Positions 28,854-37,489 of a stretch of DNA of 64,000 nt are shown piece by piece. The notes beneath the pieces are model-generated. The model made no database searches. It saw nothing but the letters and a program-made list of their open reading frames with translations, and was not told where the DNA came from. The number at the start of each line of letters is the position of its first letter. The first letter of the stretch is position 1. Source of the stretch: Achromobacter sp. AONIH1. GTDB taxonomy: Bacteria; Pseudomonadota; Gammaproteobacteria; Burkholderiales; Burkholderiaceae_B. The stretch covers positions 5,208,001-5,272,000 of the forward strand of contig NZ_CP026124.1 of NCBI RefSeq assembly GCF_002902905.1, given 5' to 3'. Both the position numbers and the translations under genes were made by a program.

Positions 28854-30017
28854 CTACAGCACGCCTTCGACCGCGTTCACCAGGATGCCCGCATACGCCT
28901 GCGGCGTGAATGGAATCGGATTGGTGCCGGCCGAGCCATCGGCGTGCGCCATCCTGCCGATGCGTTCCGCCTCCTTCGCGTCGATGCCGATCTGCGCAAG
29001 CGTGTGCGGGATGCCCAGGGCGGCACGCATCTCCAGCACCCAATCCAGAAAGCTGTCGAAGGACGGATCCGGCAGCTCCAGATAGCGCGCCAGCAGACCG
29101 ATGCGCGACGCGATGACGCTCTGGTTGGCGCGCAGCACATATGGCATCAGGATCGCGTTGAGCAGGCCGTGATGCGCGTCGTACAGCGCACCCAATGGGT
29201 GCGCCAGGGCGTGCATCGCGCCCAGGCCGCGCTGGAAAGCCGTCGCGCCCATGCTCGACGCCACCAGCATTTGCAGGCGCGCCTCCAGATCCGAGCCGTT
29301 TTCGCAGGCGCGCGGCAGATAGTCCTTGACCAGGCGGATGCCTTCCACCGCGATACCCACGGCCATCGGATGGTAGAACGGCGAACAATACGCCTCCAGG
29401 CTGTGCGACAGGGCGTCCATGCCGGTGGCGGCCGTGATCTTCGGCGGCAGGCCGACCGTCAGTTCCGGGTCCAGGATGACCACCGCCGGCAGCATCTTCG
29501 CATGGAAGATGATGCGCTTGACGTGCTCGCGTTCATCGGTGATGACCGAGGCGCGGCCGACTTCCGAGCCGGTGCCGGCCGTCGTCGGAATGGCGACCAC
29601 GGGCGCCATGCCCGCGACGTTCACGCGCAGGTGGTTGTCGCCGACGTCCTCGAAATCCCAGAGCGGCCGGTCCTGGCCCGCCATCAAGGCGATCGCCTTG
29701 GCGGCATCGAGCGCCGAGCCGCCGCCAAATGCGATGACGCCATCATGGCCGCCGGCCTTGAACGCCGCCACGCCGTCATCGACGTTCTTGCCGGTCGGAT
29801 TGCCCTTGATGGCATGGAACAGGCCCGCGTCCAGGCCGGCCGAGCGGCATGAATCCAGCAGCTTCACCGTCATCGGCAACGCCGCCAGCCCCGGGTCCGT
29901 CACCAGCAGCGGCCGCTTCATGCCCAGGCTGGCACACCATTGCGGCAGTTCGCTGGCGCGTCCCGCGCCCACCTTGACCGAGGTCGGATAATTCCAGTTT
30001 GCAATCGGGAGAGTCAT
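28854..30017 (-). CDS. Iron-containing alcohol dehydrogenase (type III)
   Basis: A 387-residue NAD(P)-dependent group III alcohol dehydrogenase. The nucleotide site reads GVIAFGGGSALDAAKAIAL, and the metal-site region has LSHSLEAYCSPFYHP and HALAHPLGALYDAHHG, which carry the conserved His ligands. It is the last gene of a five-gene minus-strand set and starts 14 bp after the aldehyde dehydrogenase. In that context it would oxidise the hydroxyl of a gamma-glutamylated amino alcohol to the aldehyde (inference from neighbours). The family alone cannot give the substrate. Confidence 0.93.
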   Translation of the reverse strand: MTLPIANWNYPTSVKVGAGRASELPQWCASLGMKRPLLVTDPGLAALPMTVKLLDSCRSAGLDAGLFHAIKGNPTGKNVDDGVAAFKAGGHDGVIAFGGGSALDAAKAIALMAGQDRPLWDFEDVGDNHLRVNVAGMAPVVAIPTTAGTGSEVGRASVITDEREHVKRIIFHAKMLPAVVILDPELTVGLPPKITAATGMDALSHSLEAYCSPFYHPMAVGIAVEGIRLVKDYLPRACENGSDLEARLQMLVASSMGATAFQRGLGAMHALAHPLGALYDAHHGLLNAILMPYVLRANQSVIASRIGLLARYLELPDPSFDSFLDWVLEMRAALGIPHTLAQIGIDAKEAERIGRMAHADGSAGTNPIPFTPQAYAGILVNAVEGVL

Positions 30018-30031
30018 GTTTTTCTCAAGGA

Positions 30032-31429
30032 CTAGGGTTGGACATGCCGCTTCAGGTGGAAGGACTTCGGACGGGTCAGATGCTCATAGCCGACCTGCGA
30101 GAGCGTGGCCCCGCGCCCAGAGTGCTTCACGCCGGTCCATGCCAGCGCCGGATCCAGGTAGTCGCAGCGATTCATGAAGAACGTGCCCGTCTCCAGGCGC
30201 TGGCCGATGCCGATCGCCGCCTGCTCGTCGGTGGTGAATACACTGGCGGTCAGGCCGTAAGGGCTGGAGTTCATCAGCGCGATCGCCTGCTCGTCGTCCC
30301 GGACCGGCATGATGCCGACGACGGGGCCAAAGCATTCATCGTTCATCAGCGTCATCGTGTGATCCACGTTGACGAACAGCCCCGGCGCCAGATACGGTCC
30401 GCCATCGTCAGCCCTGCCGAACACCTGCGGATCAATGAGATTCTTCGCGCCCTTCGCCAGCGCGTCGGCAATGACGGCGCGCACGCCATCAGCCGCCGAG
30501 GCGCGGACGACCGGGCCCAGCGTCGTCGCCGGGTCCAGCGGATTTCCCAGCACATACTGGTTCGTCAGCGCCACGGCGCGCTGAACGAACGCGTCATAGT
30601 GGCGCTGCGCGACGTAGATGCGCTGGATGCCGCAGCAGGACTGCCCGCTATTGAAAAACGCGCCGTCCACCAGCGTCTCGACGGCATGGCCGAGGTTGGC
30701 GTCTTCGCGCACATAGGCCGGATCGTTGCCGCCCAGTTCCAGGCCGACGCCGATGAAGCGGCCGGCGGCCGCCTGCTCGATGGCGCGCCCGCCGGCCACC
30801 GATCCCGTGAAGCAGACGACGTTGACCTGATTGGATTCGATGATGCGGCGAACGGCATCATGGTCGACGTGCAGGTACTGGAACAGACCCGGCGGCAGAC
30901 CGGCCTCGACGAAGGCCTGGTGGATCCATTCGGCGCAAAGCGGCGTCTGGTCAGAGTGCTTCAGGATGACCGCGTTGCCGGCCGCCAGCGCCGGCACGAT
31001 GCTGTTCACCGCCGTCAGCAGCGGGTAGTTCCACGGCGCGATCGTGAAGACCACGCCTGCCGGTTCGCGCGTGATGTAGCGGGTGTAGCCTTCCTGCGGC
31101 GGCGCCTGGATGGGCCGCAGCGACGCTTCGGCGATCGACAGCATGTGGCGGGCGCGCGCGGCGAATCCGTCCACCTCGCCGCCGGCATAGCGGATCGGCC
31201 GCCCCATCTGGCGCGTGATGCCTTCGGCGATGATCTCCTTGTTGGCGACAAAGCGGTCGATCGCGGTGCTCAGGATCCTGATGCGATGCGCGATCGGCTG
31301 CCTGGCCCAGTCCTTCTGAACTGCGTGCGCGTGCGTCAGCGCCTGCGCGATCTGCGTGTCCGTCGCCAGATCGCGCTGAACGTACAGGCTGCCATCGATG
31401 GGGCTGATGGTGGTCAGTTGCTTTTTCAT
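30032..31429 (-). CDS. NAD(P)-dependent aldehyde dehydrogenase
   Basis: A 465-residue ALDH of the succinate-semialdehyde-like group. The general base Glu is in GVGLELGGNDP, the catalytic Cys is in the FNSGQSCCGIQ block, and the nucleotide fold includes IAPWNYPL and CFTGSVAGGRAI. The ATG at 31429 (MKKQLTTISPIDGSLYV) is chosen; the frame is open further upstream but that part overlaps the ligase gene. It lies 23 bp after the ligase and 14 bp before the alcohol dehydrogenase, so the three are surely one transcript. Proposed role: oxidise the aldehyde made by the alcohol dehydrogenase. Confidence 0.94.
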   Translation of the reverse strand: MKKQLTTISPIDGSLYVQRDLATDTQIAQALTHAHAVQKDWARQPIAHRIRILSTAIDRFVANKEIIAEGITRQMGRPIRYAGGEVDGFAARARHMLSIAEASLRPIQAPPQEGYTRYITREPAGVVFTIAPWNYPLLTAVNSIVPALAAGNAVILKHSDQTPLCAEWIHQAFVEAGLPPGLFQYLHVDHDAVRRIIESNQVNVVCFTGSVAGGRAIEQAAAGRFIGVGLELGGNDPAYVREDANLGHAVETLVDGAFFNSGQSCCGIQRIYVAQRHYDAFVQRAVALTNQYVLGNPLDPATTLGPVVRASAADGVRAVIADALAKGAKNLIDPQVFGRADDGGPYLAPGLFVNVDHTMTLMNDECFGPVVGIMPVRDDEQAIALMNSSPYGLTASVFTTDEQAAIGIGQRLETGTFFMNRCDYLDPALAWTGVKHSGRGATLSQVGYEHLTRPKSFHLKRHVQP

Positions 31430-31452
31430 GACGGTCTCTCGACGACTGGAAC

Positions 31453-32850
31453 CTAGATGATTTCGAAATAGCGCTTGAGCTCCCAGTCCGTCACATGACG
31501 GCGGAACTGGCGCTCCTCCCACTCGCGCGTGGCCACGAAATGCTCGACGAACGCATCGCCGAACAGCTCGCGCCCCACTGCCGATGCGCGCAGGCGCTGC
31601 GCCGCGTCCCATAGCGAGCTGGGCAGCTTCAGATGATCGGGAAACTGCTGCGTGTAGGCATTGCCCGTGACGATGGGCTGGAGTTTCAGCTTGTGCTCGA
31701 TGCCGTGGAGACCCGCGCCCAGGGCCGCGGCCAGGGCGATGTACGGATTCGCGTCCGCGGAGCCGATGCGCACCTCGACGCGCTGCGACTTTTCCGTTCC
31801 CGGAATCAGGCGCAAGGCCGTGGTGCGGTTTTCCACGCCCCAGGTGGCGTCCAGCGGCGCCCAATAACCCGGCACCAGACGCGAATAGCTGTTGACCGTC
31901 TGCCCGTACATGCTCATGAATTCCGGCAGGAATTGCTGGACGCCGGCGATGAAGTGCTCCTGCACCACGCTCATGTTGTGCGGCCGCGATTCATCGTGGA
32001 ACGCCGACTTCCCTGATTCCCGCTCGCGCAGCGACATGTGGATGTGGCCGCTCTGGCCGGGCTCGTTGTGCGACCACTTCGCCATGAACGTGGCCATCAG
32101 GCCGTTGCGCTGGGCCAGGGCCTTGGTGAAGCACTTGAACAGCATGGCCTTGTCGGCCATCGCCAAGGCTTCGTCGACCGCCAGCGCGGCCTCCAGCACG
32201 CCCGGCCCCGTCTCGGTGTGCAGTCCCTCGATCGGCATGTCCATGGTCTCGGTCATGTCGATGAGGTCGCGATAGAAATCGCTGTTCACCGTGCTGCGCA
32301 GGATCGAATAGCCGAAGTTCCCGGGCGTCCAGCTCTTGAGGTTCTGGTAGTTCTTTTCGCGCACGCTGTGAGGCGTTTCCTCGAACACGAAGAACTCGTA
32401 TTCCAGCGCCGAATACACGTCGTAGCCCAGGTCGCCGGCGCGCTTGATCACCCGGCGCAGGACGCCGCGCGGGCAGATGTCCTCGGCATCGCCGGCGAAC
32501 TCCGCCAGGAAGAACAGCATCGGTTCGCCGTTCATGATTTCCAGCGGCAGCCGGCGGCAGCTCTGCGGAATGATGCGGACCTGCGCATCCGGGTAGGCCG
32601 TGTGCCAACCCGTGTACGACGCGTTGTCGTACATCTGATCGTCAGCGTCCCACCCCAGCACCACGCTGCAGAACGCGAACCCCGAGCGCAACGCGCAGAC
32701 GAACTTGTCCTTGCGCAGATACTTGCCGCGCAGGATGCCGTCGACGTCGGACAGCCCCACCTTGATGTGAGTCAGCTTGCTGGCCTCGACCAATCGAATG
32801 GCGTCCTCGACCGTCTTGATATCGATACCCGACTTACCCTGCGTGTCCAC
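31453..32850 (-). CDS. Glutamine-synthetase-like gamma-glutamyl-amine ligase (PuuA/GlnA4-like)
   Basis: A protein of about 465 residues of the glutamine synthetase superfamily. In order: the beta-grasp N-domain (KVGLSDVDGILRGKYL), the metal-binding ALEYEFFVFEE, the glutamate-site HTETGPGVLEAAL, SGHIHMSL and ENRTTALRLIPG. The adenylylation-loop tyrosine of true GlnA is not visible, and its dehydrogenase partners point to an enzyme that glutamylates an amine other than ammonia. The start is uncertain: no suitable ATG exists, so GTG 32850 (GGAG nine bases upstream) is chosen over GTG 32865. Substrate is inferred from the ethanolamine-type permease in the cluster. Confidence 0.88.
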   Translation of the reverse strand: MDTQGKSGIDIKTVEDAIRLVEASKLTHIKVGLSDVDGILRGKYLRKDKFVCALRSGFAFCSVVLGWDADDQMYDNASYTGWHTAYPDAQVRIIPQSCRRLPLEIMNGEPMLFFLAEFAGDAEDICPRGVLRRVIKRAGDLGYDVYSALEYEFFVFEETPHSVREKNYQNLKSWTPGNFGYSILRSTVNSDFYRDLIDMTETMDMPIEGLHTETGPGVLEAALAVDEALAMADKAMLFKCFTKALAQRNGLMATFMAKWSHNEPGQSGHIHMSLRERESGKSAFHDESRPHNMSVVQEHFIAGVQQFLPEFMSMYGQTVNSYSRLVPGYWAPLDATWGVENRTTALRLIPGTEKSQRVEVRIGSADANPYIALAAALGAGLHGIEHKLKLQPIVTGNAYTQQFPDHLKLPSSLWDAAQRLRASAVGRELFGDAFVEHFVATREWEERQFRRHVTDWELKRYFEII

Positions 32851-33106
32851 GATTGACGTCTCCACTGTTGCTGTCTTCGATACAAGCTCATCGAACGCGA
32901 CGGCCTGATTGCATCCCGTCCTTTCGATGCGTCCATGGTAATGAGGGGCATCGCGCAACCCGTATCGACTTTTGGCAAAGAATCGCCCTCTACTGGTTAA
33001 CCATGAGCGAGGTGAATCAAGCGTGATTGCAATCGCCGACGGCGCGCGCATGGCCGCGCCGCCCGCGCGGCGGCCATGCCAGCGATGCGATGTGCCGTGA
33101 GCCGGC

Positions 33107-34096
33107 TCAGCCCGCGCTGCCGCCGCCCGCGAGCAGGGTGTCGGAAGGCAGCACGCCGAACAGCGTCCGATAGTCCTGGGCAAACTGGCTCATGTGCCAG
33201 AAGCCCCAGGATGAGGCGACCTGATGGATGGTGGTCGAACCGCGCTCGCGCGCTGACAGCTCTCGACGCACGCCATTGAGCCGCAACGCGCGCAGGTAGT
33301 TCTGCGGCGTCGTGTCGTAGGCATATTCAAAACAGTATTGAAGCGTTCTGCGGCTGACGTGCAGCACGCCGCAAAGCTCCAGGATGCCGACCGCCCTGTC
33401 CCGGTTGGCCAGCGCGAAATCGCGGGCATCGGAAGCGATCTGGACCCGACGCGCGCTCGAGATGTGGCGGGCCTTCTGGCGCGTCGTCGGCAACACGCCG
33501 GACTCGACCAGCGTGGCGAATATCGTCGTTTCCACGTTGTGCTGCGCGGCGCCCCCGGAGGCATCGGCGGCGCTGCGCCCTTCCCGCAGGATCATCTGCA
33601 GCATCTCGCTCAGCGCATGCCGCCTCTGCGCGCCGATACAGATGATCTCGTTGCTGGTGTGGATCTGCCGCAACGTCGATTCGCAGTACTGCTCGGCGTA
33701 GCGCATGAGCGCATCCGCGTTCACCACCACGCCGAGAATCGAATAGTCGGGCGGCGTCAGCAGTTCGAATTCACATCCGCCCGGACGAAAGGCCAGCACC
33801 TCCGTCGAGATGGGCGTGGCATGGATGCTGCCGGCGGCATCGCGTCCGACCGGAATGCCGAACCACCATGCGCCATCCGGAATCTCGCACAGCTGATGCA
33901 GCTTGTGGCTGGTCGTTTCGCAAAACAGATGCGTGGCCGAGAAATTCAGCTCGGTAAGACTGCCGACAAACGGTCCGGGAGTCAGCTGGTCGTAGGTCTG
34001 CTTCCAGCCGCACAAGGTCGCCGCCTGCTCGTCGGCATCGTGCGACACGATCTGGCGCGCCTTGAACTCGCGGACTGATGTAGAGGTTTCGAGCAT
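33107..34096 (-). CDS. AraC-family transcriptional regulator (EutR-like)
   Basis: A 329-residue regulator. The C-terminal AraC domain carries two HTH motifs (VGILELCGVLHVSRRTLQYCF and the later SSWGFWHMSQFAQDYRTLFG). The N-terminal sensor domain is not a cupin of obvious type and resembles the EutR/AraC group used in ethanolamine control. It lies between the permease and ligase genes on the same strand, so it probably activates this cluster. Candidate sites are the palindromes TGGTTAACCA (32994-33003) and GATTGCAATC (33025-33034) in the 256-bp gap before the ligase. Confidence 0.88.
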   Translation of the reverse strand: MLETSTSVREFKARQIVSHDADEQAATLCGWKQTYDQLTPGPFVGSLTELNFSATHLFCETTSHKLHQLCEIPDGAWWFGIPVGRDAAGSIHATPISTEVLAFRPGGCEFELLTPPDYSILGVVVNADALMRYAEQYCESTLRQIHTSNEIICIGAQRRHALSEMLQMILREGRSAADASGGAAQHNVETTIFATLVESGVLPTTRQKARHISSARRVQIASDARDFALANRDRAVGILELCGVLHVSRRTLQYCFEYAYDTTPQNYLRALRLNGVRRELSARERGSTTIHQVASSWGFWHMSQFAQDYRTLFGVLPSDTLLAGGGSAG

Positions 34097-34237
34097 CTCG
34101 TGGCGACCTCATCGATTGCCGTCAGGCGGCTGCGGCAGCGCCCCATGTCGAGGCCGAGGCCGGCTTGGCATCACGAAGAATCGGTTGGCGCCTGGCATCA
34201 TGTTCCCCTACTCCGGCCTCACGGCCTCTTCGAGCAA

Positions 34238-35620
34238 CTAGGCCGCATCGTCCTTGCGCCTTCCCCTGGTCATCAGGAAGTAGACGTAGCCCAGCGCCAT
34301 GAAGGCCGCGAACAGCAGCGCGACCTCGCGGTTATAGTAGATCATCGTCAACAGACAGACGATGGCCGCCACCAGGGAAAACCCTGGGAAAAAGGGATAC
34401 AACGGCGCGCGGAACGGGCGGGCCAGCCCGGGCTCCGTTTTCCTCAGCTTGAACAGCGAGAGGATGCTGATGATGTACATCACGATGGCGCCGAACACCG
34501 ACATCGTCACGATGTTCGCGGTGAGCGCCTGGCCGGCGAACTGCACGTACTGGTCGCTGAAGATGGCGATGATGCCGACCACGCCGCCAGCCAGGATGGC
34601 CCGGTGCGGCGTCCTGAAGCGCGGGTGCAGCTTCGCCAGCCACGCCGGCAGATAGCCTTCGCGGCCCAACGCGTAGATCTGGCGCGAGTAGCCGAGAATG
34701 ATGCCGTGGAACGAGGCGACCAGGCCGAACAGCCCAAGCCAGATCAGCATGTGCATCCAGCCGCTGTTTTCCCCCACGATGAGCTTCATCGCCTGCGGCA
34801 GCGGATCGTTGATGTCCGCCAGCAGTTTCCAGTCGCCCACGCCGCCCGCGAACAGCATCACGCCCATCGCCAGCACCACCAGCGTCAGGATGCCCGTGAT
34901 GTACGCGATCGGAATCGAACGCCTGGGATTCTTGGCTTCCTCCGCCGCCATGGCGACGCCCTCGATCGCGAGGAAGAACCAGATGGCGAACGGCACCGCG
35001 CCAAGGATGCCGCCAAACGTGCCCATCGAAAAGCTGTCGGCGCCGGCCCAGCCGCCCTGCGTGAAGTTCGACCAGTGAAATCCCGGGGCCACGACGCCCA
35101 TGAATACGAGCAGCTCGAACACGGCCAGCAGCGTGATCGTGAGCTCGAACGCCGCGGCGATCTGCACGCCAACGATGTTCAGCGACATGAAGATGAGATA
35201 GGCGCCCACCGCCGCGGTGGTGGGCGAAAGCCCGGGAAACTGGATATGGAGATACGCGCCGATGGCCAGCGAAATGGCGGGTGGCGCGAACACGAACTCG
35301 ACCAGTGTCGCCATGCCGGCGATGTATCCGCCCACCGGGCCGAACGCCCGCTTGGCGTAGGCGAAGGGCCCGCCCGCGTGCGGAATCGAGGTGGTGAGTT
35401 CGGTGAAGCTGAAGATGAACGTCGTGTACATCGCCGCGACGAAGGCCGACGTGACCAGAAAGCCCAGCGTCCCGGCCTTCGCCCAGCCGTAGCTCCAGCC
35501 GAAATACTCGCCGGAGATCACGAGCCCGACGGCGATGCCCCACAGCTGCCAGGTGCCCAGCGTCTTCTTCAGACCGCCCTGGGTCGATCCGCCATGGGGA
35601 TGGGAATTCACATTTGACAT
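34238..35620 (-). CDS. APC-superfamily amino acid permease, ethanolamine permease type
   Basis: A 460-residue transporter with about 12 membrane helices. The N-terminal SGEYFGWSYGWAKAGTLGF block is the hallmark of the ethanolamine permease subfamily of APC transporters, and FAIWFFLAIEGVAMAAEEAK is also typical of that group. It begins MSNVNSHPHGGSTQGGLKKTLG. It is the first gene of the minus-strand cluster and supplies the substrate clue for the ligase and the dehydrogenases. A 741-bp gene-free region lies upstream, presumably holding its promoter. Confidence 0.9.
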   Translation of the reverse strand: MSNVNSHPHGGSTQGGLKKTLGTWQLWGIAVGLVISGEYFGWSYGWAKAGTLGFLVTSAFVAAMYTTFIFSFTELTTSIPHAGGPFAYAKRAFGPVGGYIAGMATLVEFVFAPPAISLAIGAYLHIQFPGLSPTTAAVGAYLIFMSLNIVGVQIAAAFELTITLLAVFELLVFMGVVAPGFHWSNFTQGGWAGADSFSMGTFGGILGAVPFAIWFFLAIEGVAMAAEEAKNPRRSIPIAYITGILTLVVLAMGVMLFAGGVGDWKLLADINDPLPQAMKLIVGENSGWMHMLIWLGLFGLVASFHGIILGYSRQIYALGREGYLPAWLAKLHPRFRTPHRAILAGGVVGIIAIFSDQYVQFAGQALTANIVTMSVFGAIVMYIISILSLFKLRKTEPGLARPFRAPLYPFFPGFSLVAAIVCLLTMIYYNREVALLFAAFMALGYVYFLMTRGRRKDDAA

Positions 35621-36360: not shown

Positions 36361-37388
36361 TCAGGCTGGCGCTACAGTCTGCTCACTTCGGTAGTTCGTT
36401 CCATTGGCGAGGATGGCCCAGGCGATCCTCGCCAATTTATTGGCCAGCGCACAAGCGACCACGTTCGAGTGACGTCGGGCCTGCAGCTCGCGCACCCAGG
36501 CGCCTAGCCGGTCGGTTCGTCGCTCCACGTGTCGCATGATCGCGCGAGCGCCCTGTACCAACAATCGTCTAAGGTTCTTGTCGCCCCGTTTGCTGATGCC
36601 CAGGAGCGTGGGTTTGCCGCCCGTGCTGTACTGGCGAGGCACCAAGCCTACCGAAGCGGCGAACTGGCGCGCCGAACCAAATTGCCGCGCATCGCCCAGC
36701 TCAGTCATCAGCACGCTAGCAGTGATTGGCCCGATGCCGGGGATCTGAAGCAGCCGCTGGCTGCGTTCATCCTCGCGCAGCTGTAGACACAGCTCACGCT
36801 CAATCTGGCCTACCTGCTCATCCAGATACTGAAAGTGCGATCGCAGCCGCTCCAGCAGCGCGCCTAGTTGGGGCGGCAGCGCGTGTTCGGCCAGAACCGC
36901 TGGCAAGCGTCGCAGGATCGCCTGACCACGAGGCAGGCTGATGCCAAACTCCAGCAAAAAGGCGTGCACCTGGTTGATCACGCCCGTGCGCTGAGCGACC
37001 AGTGATTCACGCACCCGATGCAGGGCAGAGACGGTCTGCTGAGCCTGATTGCGCACGCTCACGAACCGCATGCTCGGGCGCGAGGCCGCCTCGCAGATCG
37101 CCTGGGCATCGGCGAAGTCATTCTTGTTGCCCTGTACGAAGGGGCGCACGAACCTGGGGGGGAAATGAGCTTGGCCTGGTGGCCCAGTTCTTCGATGCGG
37201 CGCGCCATCCAGTGCGCGCCGGCGCAGGCCTCCATCACCACTGTGCTGCGCGGTGTGTTGCCCAGTAACTTGAACAGATCCTGGCGCGAGCACTTCTTGC
37301 GAAACATCATCCTGCCGGCCGCGTCCTGCCCATGCAGATGGAAGCTGTGTTTGCCCAGATCGATGCCAATCAGCGTGACGGTGCTCAT
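36361..37388 (-). pseudogene. IS110-family transposase, frameshifted
   Basis: A RuvC-like DEDD recombinase. The N-terminal frame starts at ATG 37388 (MSTVTLIGIDLGKHSFHLHG, first Asp) and contains ACAGAHWMARRI (Glu). It shifts out of frame in a run of seven C on the coding strand near 37156-37162. The rest continues in another frame with RFVRPFVQGNKNDFADAQAI (the two closing Asp) and the C-terminal transposase-20 domain (IPGIGPITASVLMTELGDARQF). Adding one C, or removing two, restores an uninterrupted protein of about 342 residues. It may be a dead copy, a slippage site or a sequencing error in the homopolymer. Confidence 0.88.
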
Positions 37389-37410
37389 GAGAGGTCTCCC
37401 AAAAAGAACA

Positions 37411-37489
37411 ATCCCCACTCAGCGTACCGCTTCGTGGGGATCGGGCTGACCATCTCATTAGCCCCGGAGCACTTGCGTGCCACGGGGCT
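37411..37489 (-). other. Two strong hairpins in the 5' flank of the IS110 transposase (candidate bridge RNA)
   Basis: ATCCCCAC (37411-37418) pairs perfectly with GTGGGGAT (37434-37441) over a 15-nt loop. Next to it, AGCCCCG (37460-37466) pairs with CGGGGCT (37483-37489), enclosing GCAC-TTGC-GTGC. IS110-group elements encode a structured bridge RNA immediately 5' of the transposase, which is where these lie. Assignment is by position and structure only. Confidence 0.4.

Follow-up and report, generated by a model that had tools for sequence, protein, structure and literature searches.

Ethanolamine is an abundant compound derived from phosphatidylethanolamine, and gamma-glutamyl masking by a glutamine synthetase (GS)-like ligase is known from the Ipu pathway, where the ligase is IpuC. 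A gamma-glutamylation route for ethanolamine has already been published for Chromohalobacter, Agrobacterium, Streptomyces and Phaeobacter. The Phaeobacter operon is described as containing RpiR, GGAH, EtoV, EtoW, EtoX, the ligase, an aldehyde dehydrogenase (ALDH) and an alcohol dehydrogenase (PMC10132767). GlnA4 of Streptomyces coelicolor makes gamma-glutamylethanolamide, with the activity shown in vitro and the later steps predicted (PMC6529630). The pathway has also been reviewed, with Achromobacter among the genera reported to use ethanolamine (PMC9397018). Accounts of the pathway of Vetting 2015 differ: PMC10132767 presents it as demonstrated, naming C. salexigens and A. tumefaciens, and PMC6529630 as an in silico prediction.

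We examined a locus in a 64,000-nucleotide stretch of the Achromobacter sp. AONIH1 genome (the window). It has the same ligase-ALDH-alcohol dehydrogenase order as the Chromohalobacter salexigens/Agrobacterium/Phaeobacter pathway (EtoXWV; ETAGA-GAADDH-GETADH-GGAH), and would share its overall chemistry. However, that type carries a TRAP transporter and an RpiR regulator, whereas the window has an APC permease and an EutR-like AraC regulator, along with a ligase of another subfamily. The published operons also contain a hydrolase gene that the window locus lacks, making it a variant that would work like that pathway. The S. coelicolor GlnA4 system (SCO1611-1615), to which we liken the window by description, has a ligase, an alcohol and an aldehyde dehydrogenase and no eut genes, but differs in its regulator (EpuRI) and in its proposed hydrolase of the formylglutamate amidohydrolase (FGase) family. 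The original prediction had regarded this as a novel parallel route for ethanolamine, and the combination of functions in one locus as a candidate novelty. Neither view can be kept, since the ligase-ALDH-alcohol dehydrogenase pathway is in print (PMC10132767, PMC6529630 and PMC9397018), and similar loci occur in many Proteobacteria. What is new here is the swapping of parts within a known pathway.

Gene content and order of the locus

The open reading frame list placed all five pathway genes on the minus strand between 28854 and 35620, and the NCBIfam and Pfam matches bore out their predicted identities and order:

34238..35620, minus strand: ethanolamine permease, APC superfamily, 460 aa (TIGR00908, 653 bits; cut-off 381.75)
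33107..34096, minus strand: EutR-like AraC-family regulator, 329 aa (best family EutR PRK10130, 215 bits, below the cut-off of 319)
31453..32850, minus strand: GS-like ligase, predicted gamma-glutamylethanolamide synthetase, 465 aa, GTG start (PF00120, 330 bits)
30032..31429, minus strand: ALDH, predicted gamma-glutamyl-acetaldehyde dehydrogenase, 465 aa from ATG (PF00171, 416 bits)
28854..30017, minus strand: iron-containing alcohol dehydrogenase (FeADH), predicted gamma-glutamylethanolamide dehydrogenase, 387 aa (PF00465 and PF25137)
36361..37458, minus strand: transposase (open reading frame), upstream of the permease; context, outside the pathway

The transposase is, going by its sequence, presumably of the IS110 type. 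The Pfam scans were run on a ligase frame with three extra codons and an ALDH frame with one extra codon. The ligase start is the GTG at 32850, and the resulting length of 465 aa agrees with its own database cluster. Reading frames were intact in all five genes. The close spacing noted for the last three genes (14-23 bp) was confirmed by the coordinates, which gave 23 bp between ligase and ALDH and 14 bp between ALDH and FeADH. The gaps between AraC and ligase (256 bp) and between permease and AraC (141 bp) were wider, and therefore only the ligase, ALDH and FeADH genes form a secure operon. A sigma-54 promoter scan of the window gave 5 one-mismatch sites against 6.8 expected, with none near the operon.

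The GS-like ligase

In a residue comparison with GS, we observed that the metal, glutamate and ATP residues were retained in the ligase. The residue E327 of the ammonia enzyme was replaced by a tryptophan (W330), and PauA7 likewise has a tryptophan (W296) at this position (PMC6529630). The AlphaFold model showed the GS fold. Four curated NCBIfam GS models matched the ligase, all far below their cut-offs; TIGR00653 scored 220 bits (cut-off 429), and the gamma-glutamylputrescine synthetase model 174 bits (cut-off 650). The glutamine synthetase family name and this weak match could suggest a polyamine (Puu-like) or nitrogen-assimilation locus, with a ligase making gamma-glutamylputrescine or glutamine. 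We consider this extremely unlikely, as the scores of all four models, the replacement of E327 and the absence of a diamine oxidase from the five genes (by Pfam) argue against it. Moreover, the genome has two GS-like genes, the window ligase and one other, which we take from its sequence to be GlnA.

The top sequence match of the ligase was PDB 5dm3 (titled Csal_0679), but it was ruled out as a close orthologue, since the similarity was only distant (32% identity in the structure alignment). Identity to the Paracoccus eto ligase was 35%, and that ligase is itself 59.9% identical to Csal_0679. In the ligase tree, the window ligase stood on a branch separate from the Paracoccus and Ruegeria ligases. 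Clear orthology to Csal_0679 was thus not found by sequence, structure alignment or tree, and at 35% and 32% identity function cannot be transferred by orthology of the ligase. By these comparisons the ligase subfamily is different from the published Csal_0679 type, and it is the distant similarity to 5dm3/Csal_0679 that leads us to read the ligase as swapped.

Conservation of the ligase, ALDH and FeADH genes

A scan of genome contigs with the ligase gave at least 592 confirmed relatives. We retained the 80 best loci; all locus counts here rest on these best 80 of at least 592 and not on a random sample. In ten of the 80, less than 3.2 kb of sequence follows the ligase; excluding these left 70 testable loci. 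ALDH and FeADH were both present in 64 of these 70, an association beyond chance. FeADH was found in 69, five of them without ALDH, and one locus (L091) had neither. Related loci were seen in Achromobacter, Paraburkholderia, Bordetella, Gallionella, Legionella, Halomonas, Microbulbifer and Desulfopila, among other lineages. At E 1e-100 or better, the ligase was found in 61 of 268 genomes of the window's family and in 41 of 43 genomes of its genus (its own included). The window ALDH and FeADH shared 54% and 53% identity, respectively, with their counterparts in a Paracoccus denitrificans operon. The Paracoccus and Ruegeria operons are annotated in the order published for Phaeobacter, with an FeADH.

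In the genus-mates G005 and G007 and in a named Achromobacter locus, the ligase operon adjoins a gene that we take to be EF-Tu. In three Nitrosomonas MAGs (L100, L105 and L124), the ligase groups with gammaproteobacterial ones, and L100 also has a class-I glutamine amidotransferase (GATase); the pattern looks as if the operon had moved as a unit.

Evidence for the substrate

The original remark that EutBC is missing nearby holds genome-wide as far as EutB is concerned: a search of the complete genome, a single contig of 6.65 Mb, gave no match to EutB, while the E. coli genome, used as a control, gave a positive match. The EutR-like regulator and the ethanolamine permease are common to the window and the Eut ammonia-lyase pathway; however, the latter has EutB, and so no acetaldehyde stage would be expected here. 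The Eut pathway was ruled out for this genome on the same ground.

Near the ligase genes, we observed two kinds of transporter among the best 80 of at least 592 loci. A permease related to that of the window was present in 12 loci, with an identity of 70-71% in two of them and of 35-40% in the other ten; two were scanned, and both passed the TIGR00908 cut-off (L016, 553 bits; L075, 642 bits). TRAP receptors, all belonging to one close group, were also present in 12 loci, and one locus (L107) carried both. Thus one or both types were found near the ligase in 23 of the best 80 loci, the remaining 57 being silent on the substrate. The receptor of an Aidingimonas locus (L093) matched PDB 4uab/4xf5, titled Csal_0678, with 524 bits (next entry, 69.5); the structure model of the receptor was poor (mean pLDDT 45), and only the entry titles from its search were used. 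A Phaeobacter homologue of this receptor binds ethanolamine with a Kd of 7.9 uM, and Csal_0678 is placed in the same tree (PMC10132767). Two unrelated kinds of transporter, both linked to this ligase type, thus point to ethanolamine as the likely substrate.

An AraC gene related to that of the window was found in six of the best 80 loci. Another regulator, presumably of the LysR type (e.g. L052, 13534-14505), lies near the operon in 18 of the best 80 loci, in both beta- and gammaproteobacteria, as an alternative to the EutR-like AraC. An inositol-monophosphatase-family gene (e.g. L055, 7124-7933) was near the ligase in 19 of the best 80 loci. It lies upstream of the ligase in 16 of these and downstream in the other three (L076, L077 and L082), and might dephosphorylate phosphoethanolamine.

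The chemistry would be identical for any primary amino alcohol, and the ligase shared 38% identity with IpuC of Paenarthrobacter aurescens TC1, slightly more than with the Paracoccus eto ligase (35%). The masking could thus act in the same way on a different small amino alcohol (alaninol, 1-amino-2-propanol or 3-amino-1-propanol), as in isopropylamine/alaninol degradation. However, the strong match of the permease to TIGR00908, the EutR-like regulator and the Csal_0678-type receptor beside ligases of the window type all favour ethanolamine. The IpuC locus is also annotated with an SDR dehydrogenase, a P450, a ferredoxin and a glutamine amidotransferase, where the window has FeADH and ALDH. We therefore regard another amino alcohol as unlikely.

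The gamma-glutamylation chemistry is well supported by the ligase-ALDH-FeADH trio (64 of the 70 testable loci) and by the Csal_0678/EtoX-type receptor in 12 of the best 80. Together, these comparisons have led us to conclude, with considerable confidence, that the locus is an operon for turning ethanolamine into glycine by way of gamma-glutamylation.

Candidates for the final hydrolase

Both alphaproteobacterial operons (Paracoccus and Ruegeria) contain a gene of the N-formylglutamate amidohydrolase family. Of the best 80 of at least 592 loci, 28 carried a class-I GATase akin to the L. lytica enzyme, and in 12 an M81 (MlrC-like) metallopeptidase followed FeADH; the two were never found together (0 of 80). 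In 60 of these loci FeADH is present and at least 2.5 kb of sequence follows it; here 26 had the GATase, 12 had M81 and 22 had neither. The M81 match began no more than 72 bp from that of FeADH in 10 of the 12 loci (at 425 and 478 bp in the other two), and the three M81 proteins scanned carried PF07364 and PF07171. All 12 M81 loci fell in one ligase clade, the window's own (37 entries, SH-aLRT 99), whose other members, where named, are betaproteobacterial; none of the GATase loci fell in this clade. Outside the best 80, M81 was also seen in L152, L157 and L158 (among 20 family stretches). Beyond the gammaproteobacteria, the GATase was found in Desulfopila, Desulfocapsa and a Nitrosomonas MAG. 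A Burkholderia vietnamiensis plasmid locus (L012), outside the M81 clade, lacked an FeADH match and had a class-I amidotransferase by annotation. We discarded a tally of 16 hydrolase changes across the ligase tree, since short loci and plasmid entries had been scored as 'none'.

From this distribution, M81 is predicted to cleave gamma-Glu-Gly in place of the GATase. Several results speak against such a swap: of the 22 loci with neither gene, 11 belong to the M81-bearing ligase clade (eight from Achromobacter and one each from Bordetella, Burkholderia and Candidimonas), the GATase occurs beyond the gammaproteobacteria, L012 has its amidotransferase, and the window's own genome holds further M81 genes. 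In the open-licence PMC literature, we found nothing linking the M81 family with ethanolamine, or an M81 metallopeptidase with glutamine synthetase.

In the window's own genome, all matches to PF07722, the L. lytica GATase, PF07364 (M81) and PF05013 (FGase) lay outside the window. Eight M81 genes were over the cut-off, which indicates that M81 has other uses. Two of them, C1:77548 and C1:3787885, fell in a group (support 100/100) with the 13 operon-linked M81 genes of the tree, and were up to 48% identical to operon-linked M81. This tree covers 13 of the 15 M81 genes of distinct ligase loci (L152 and L157 were left out), and the operon-linked genes need two changes on it, so they do not form a single clean clade. 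The C1:77548 gene precedes genes that by eye resemble an ABC transporter set, and its role may therefore differ. Further hydrolase candidates are three genes of the FGase family and five of the gamma-glutamyltranspeptidase family. One FGase-family gene and an operon-group M81 gene lie about 19 kb apart (C1:3768470-3788751). No clear orthologue of the L. lytica GATase was found in this genome (best match, 32% over about 151 residues), and the alphaproteobacterial GGAH sequences matched the three own FGase loci only in a 28-residue piece (E 0.08).

As both candidate hydrolases are missing in cis (as in 22 of the 60 loci with room, from the best 80 of at least 592), the pathway could be incomplete or cryptic here, an acquired operon without its hydrolase; this would be compatible with our assignment of the three enzymes. 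However, the eight Achromobacter loci with room after FeADH keep the three enzyme genes while lacking both hydrolases, the five reading frames of the window are intact, and the genome offers the M81, FGase and gamma-glutamyltranspeptidase candidates above. We consider a cryptic pathway very unlikely.

Origin of the window copy

In the ligase tree, the window ligase grouped with those of Paraburkholderia and Caballeronia (SH-aLRT 97), apart from the Achromobacter group (99). At E 1e-30, the permease had no match in six of six genus-mates, so that among the seven genomes searched only its own had it. Collinearity with the four genus-mate stretches (about 19 kb each) started in all four only near 38.0-38.2 kb, with 85-89% matches at 38.2-41 kb, and one of the four also matched at 24.2-26.2 kb. 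Between 26200 and 38000, no collinear nucleotide match of at least 150 bp was found in these four stretches, and on this comparison the interval is a strain-variable segment. The transposase (36361-37458) lies inside it. The ligase grouping, the absence of the permease from genus-mates, the broken collinearity and the transposase together make horizontal acquisition likely, and the operon copy was probably acquired into this variable segment.

Proposed pathway and its implications

Gene content, order, conservation, family membership, the kinship of ALDH and FeADH and transporter linkage were computed, and from these we infer every substrate and reaction. The originally proposed masking chemistry, with two oxidations and a hydrolase encoded elsewhere, remains the best-supported reading. 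The permease would import ethanolamine, which the EutR-like regulator probably senses. The ligase would then join ethanolamine to glutamate at the expense of ATP, giving gamma-glutamylethanolamide; FeADH would oxidize the masked alcohol to the aldehyde, and ALDH the aldehyde to gamma-glutamyl-glycine. Finally, a hydrolase encoded outside the locus would release glycine and return glutamate, our best guess being an M81 metallopeptidase acting in trans. It is possible, though we stop short of calling it probable, that this is a betaproteobacterial form of the pathway with both ends swapped. It would have a ligase that is not of the Csal_0679 type, and M81 instead of the amidotransferase or formylglutamate-amidohydrolase family, supplied here in trans from C1:77548 or C1:3787885.

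If this is true, the 'glutamine synthetase' annotations in many Burkholderiales, Halomonadaceae and other Proteobacteria would denote ethanolamine ligases, and eut-negative strains could still use ethanolamine. The poorly understood M81 family would also gain a metabolic substrate and a testable role.
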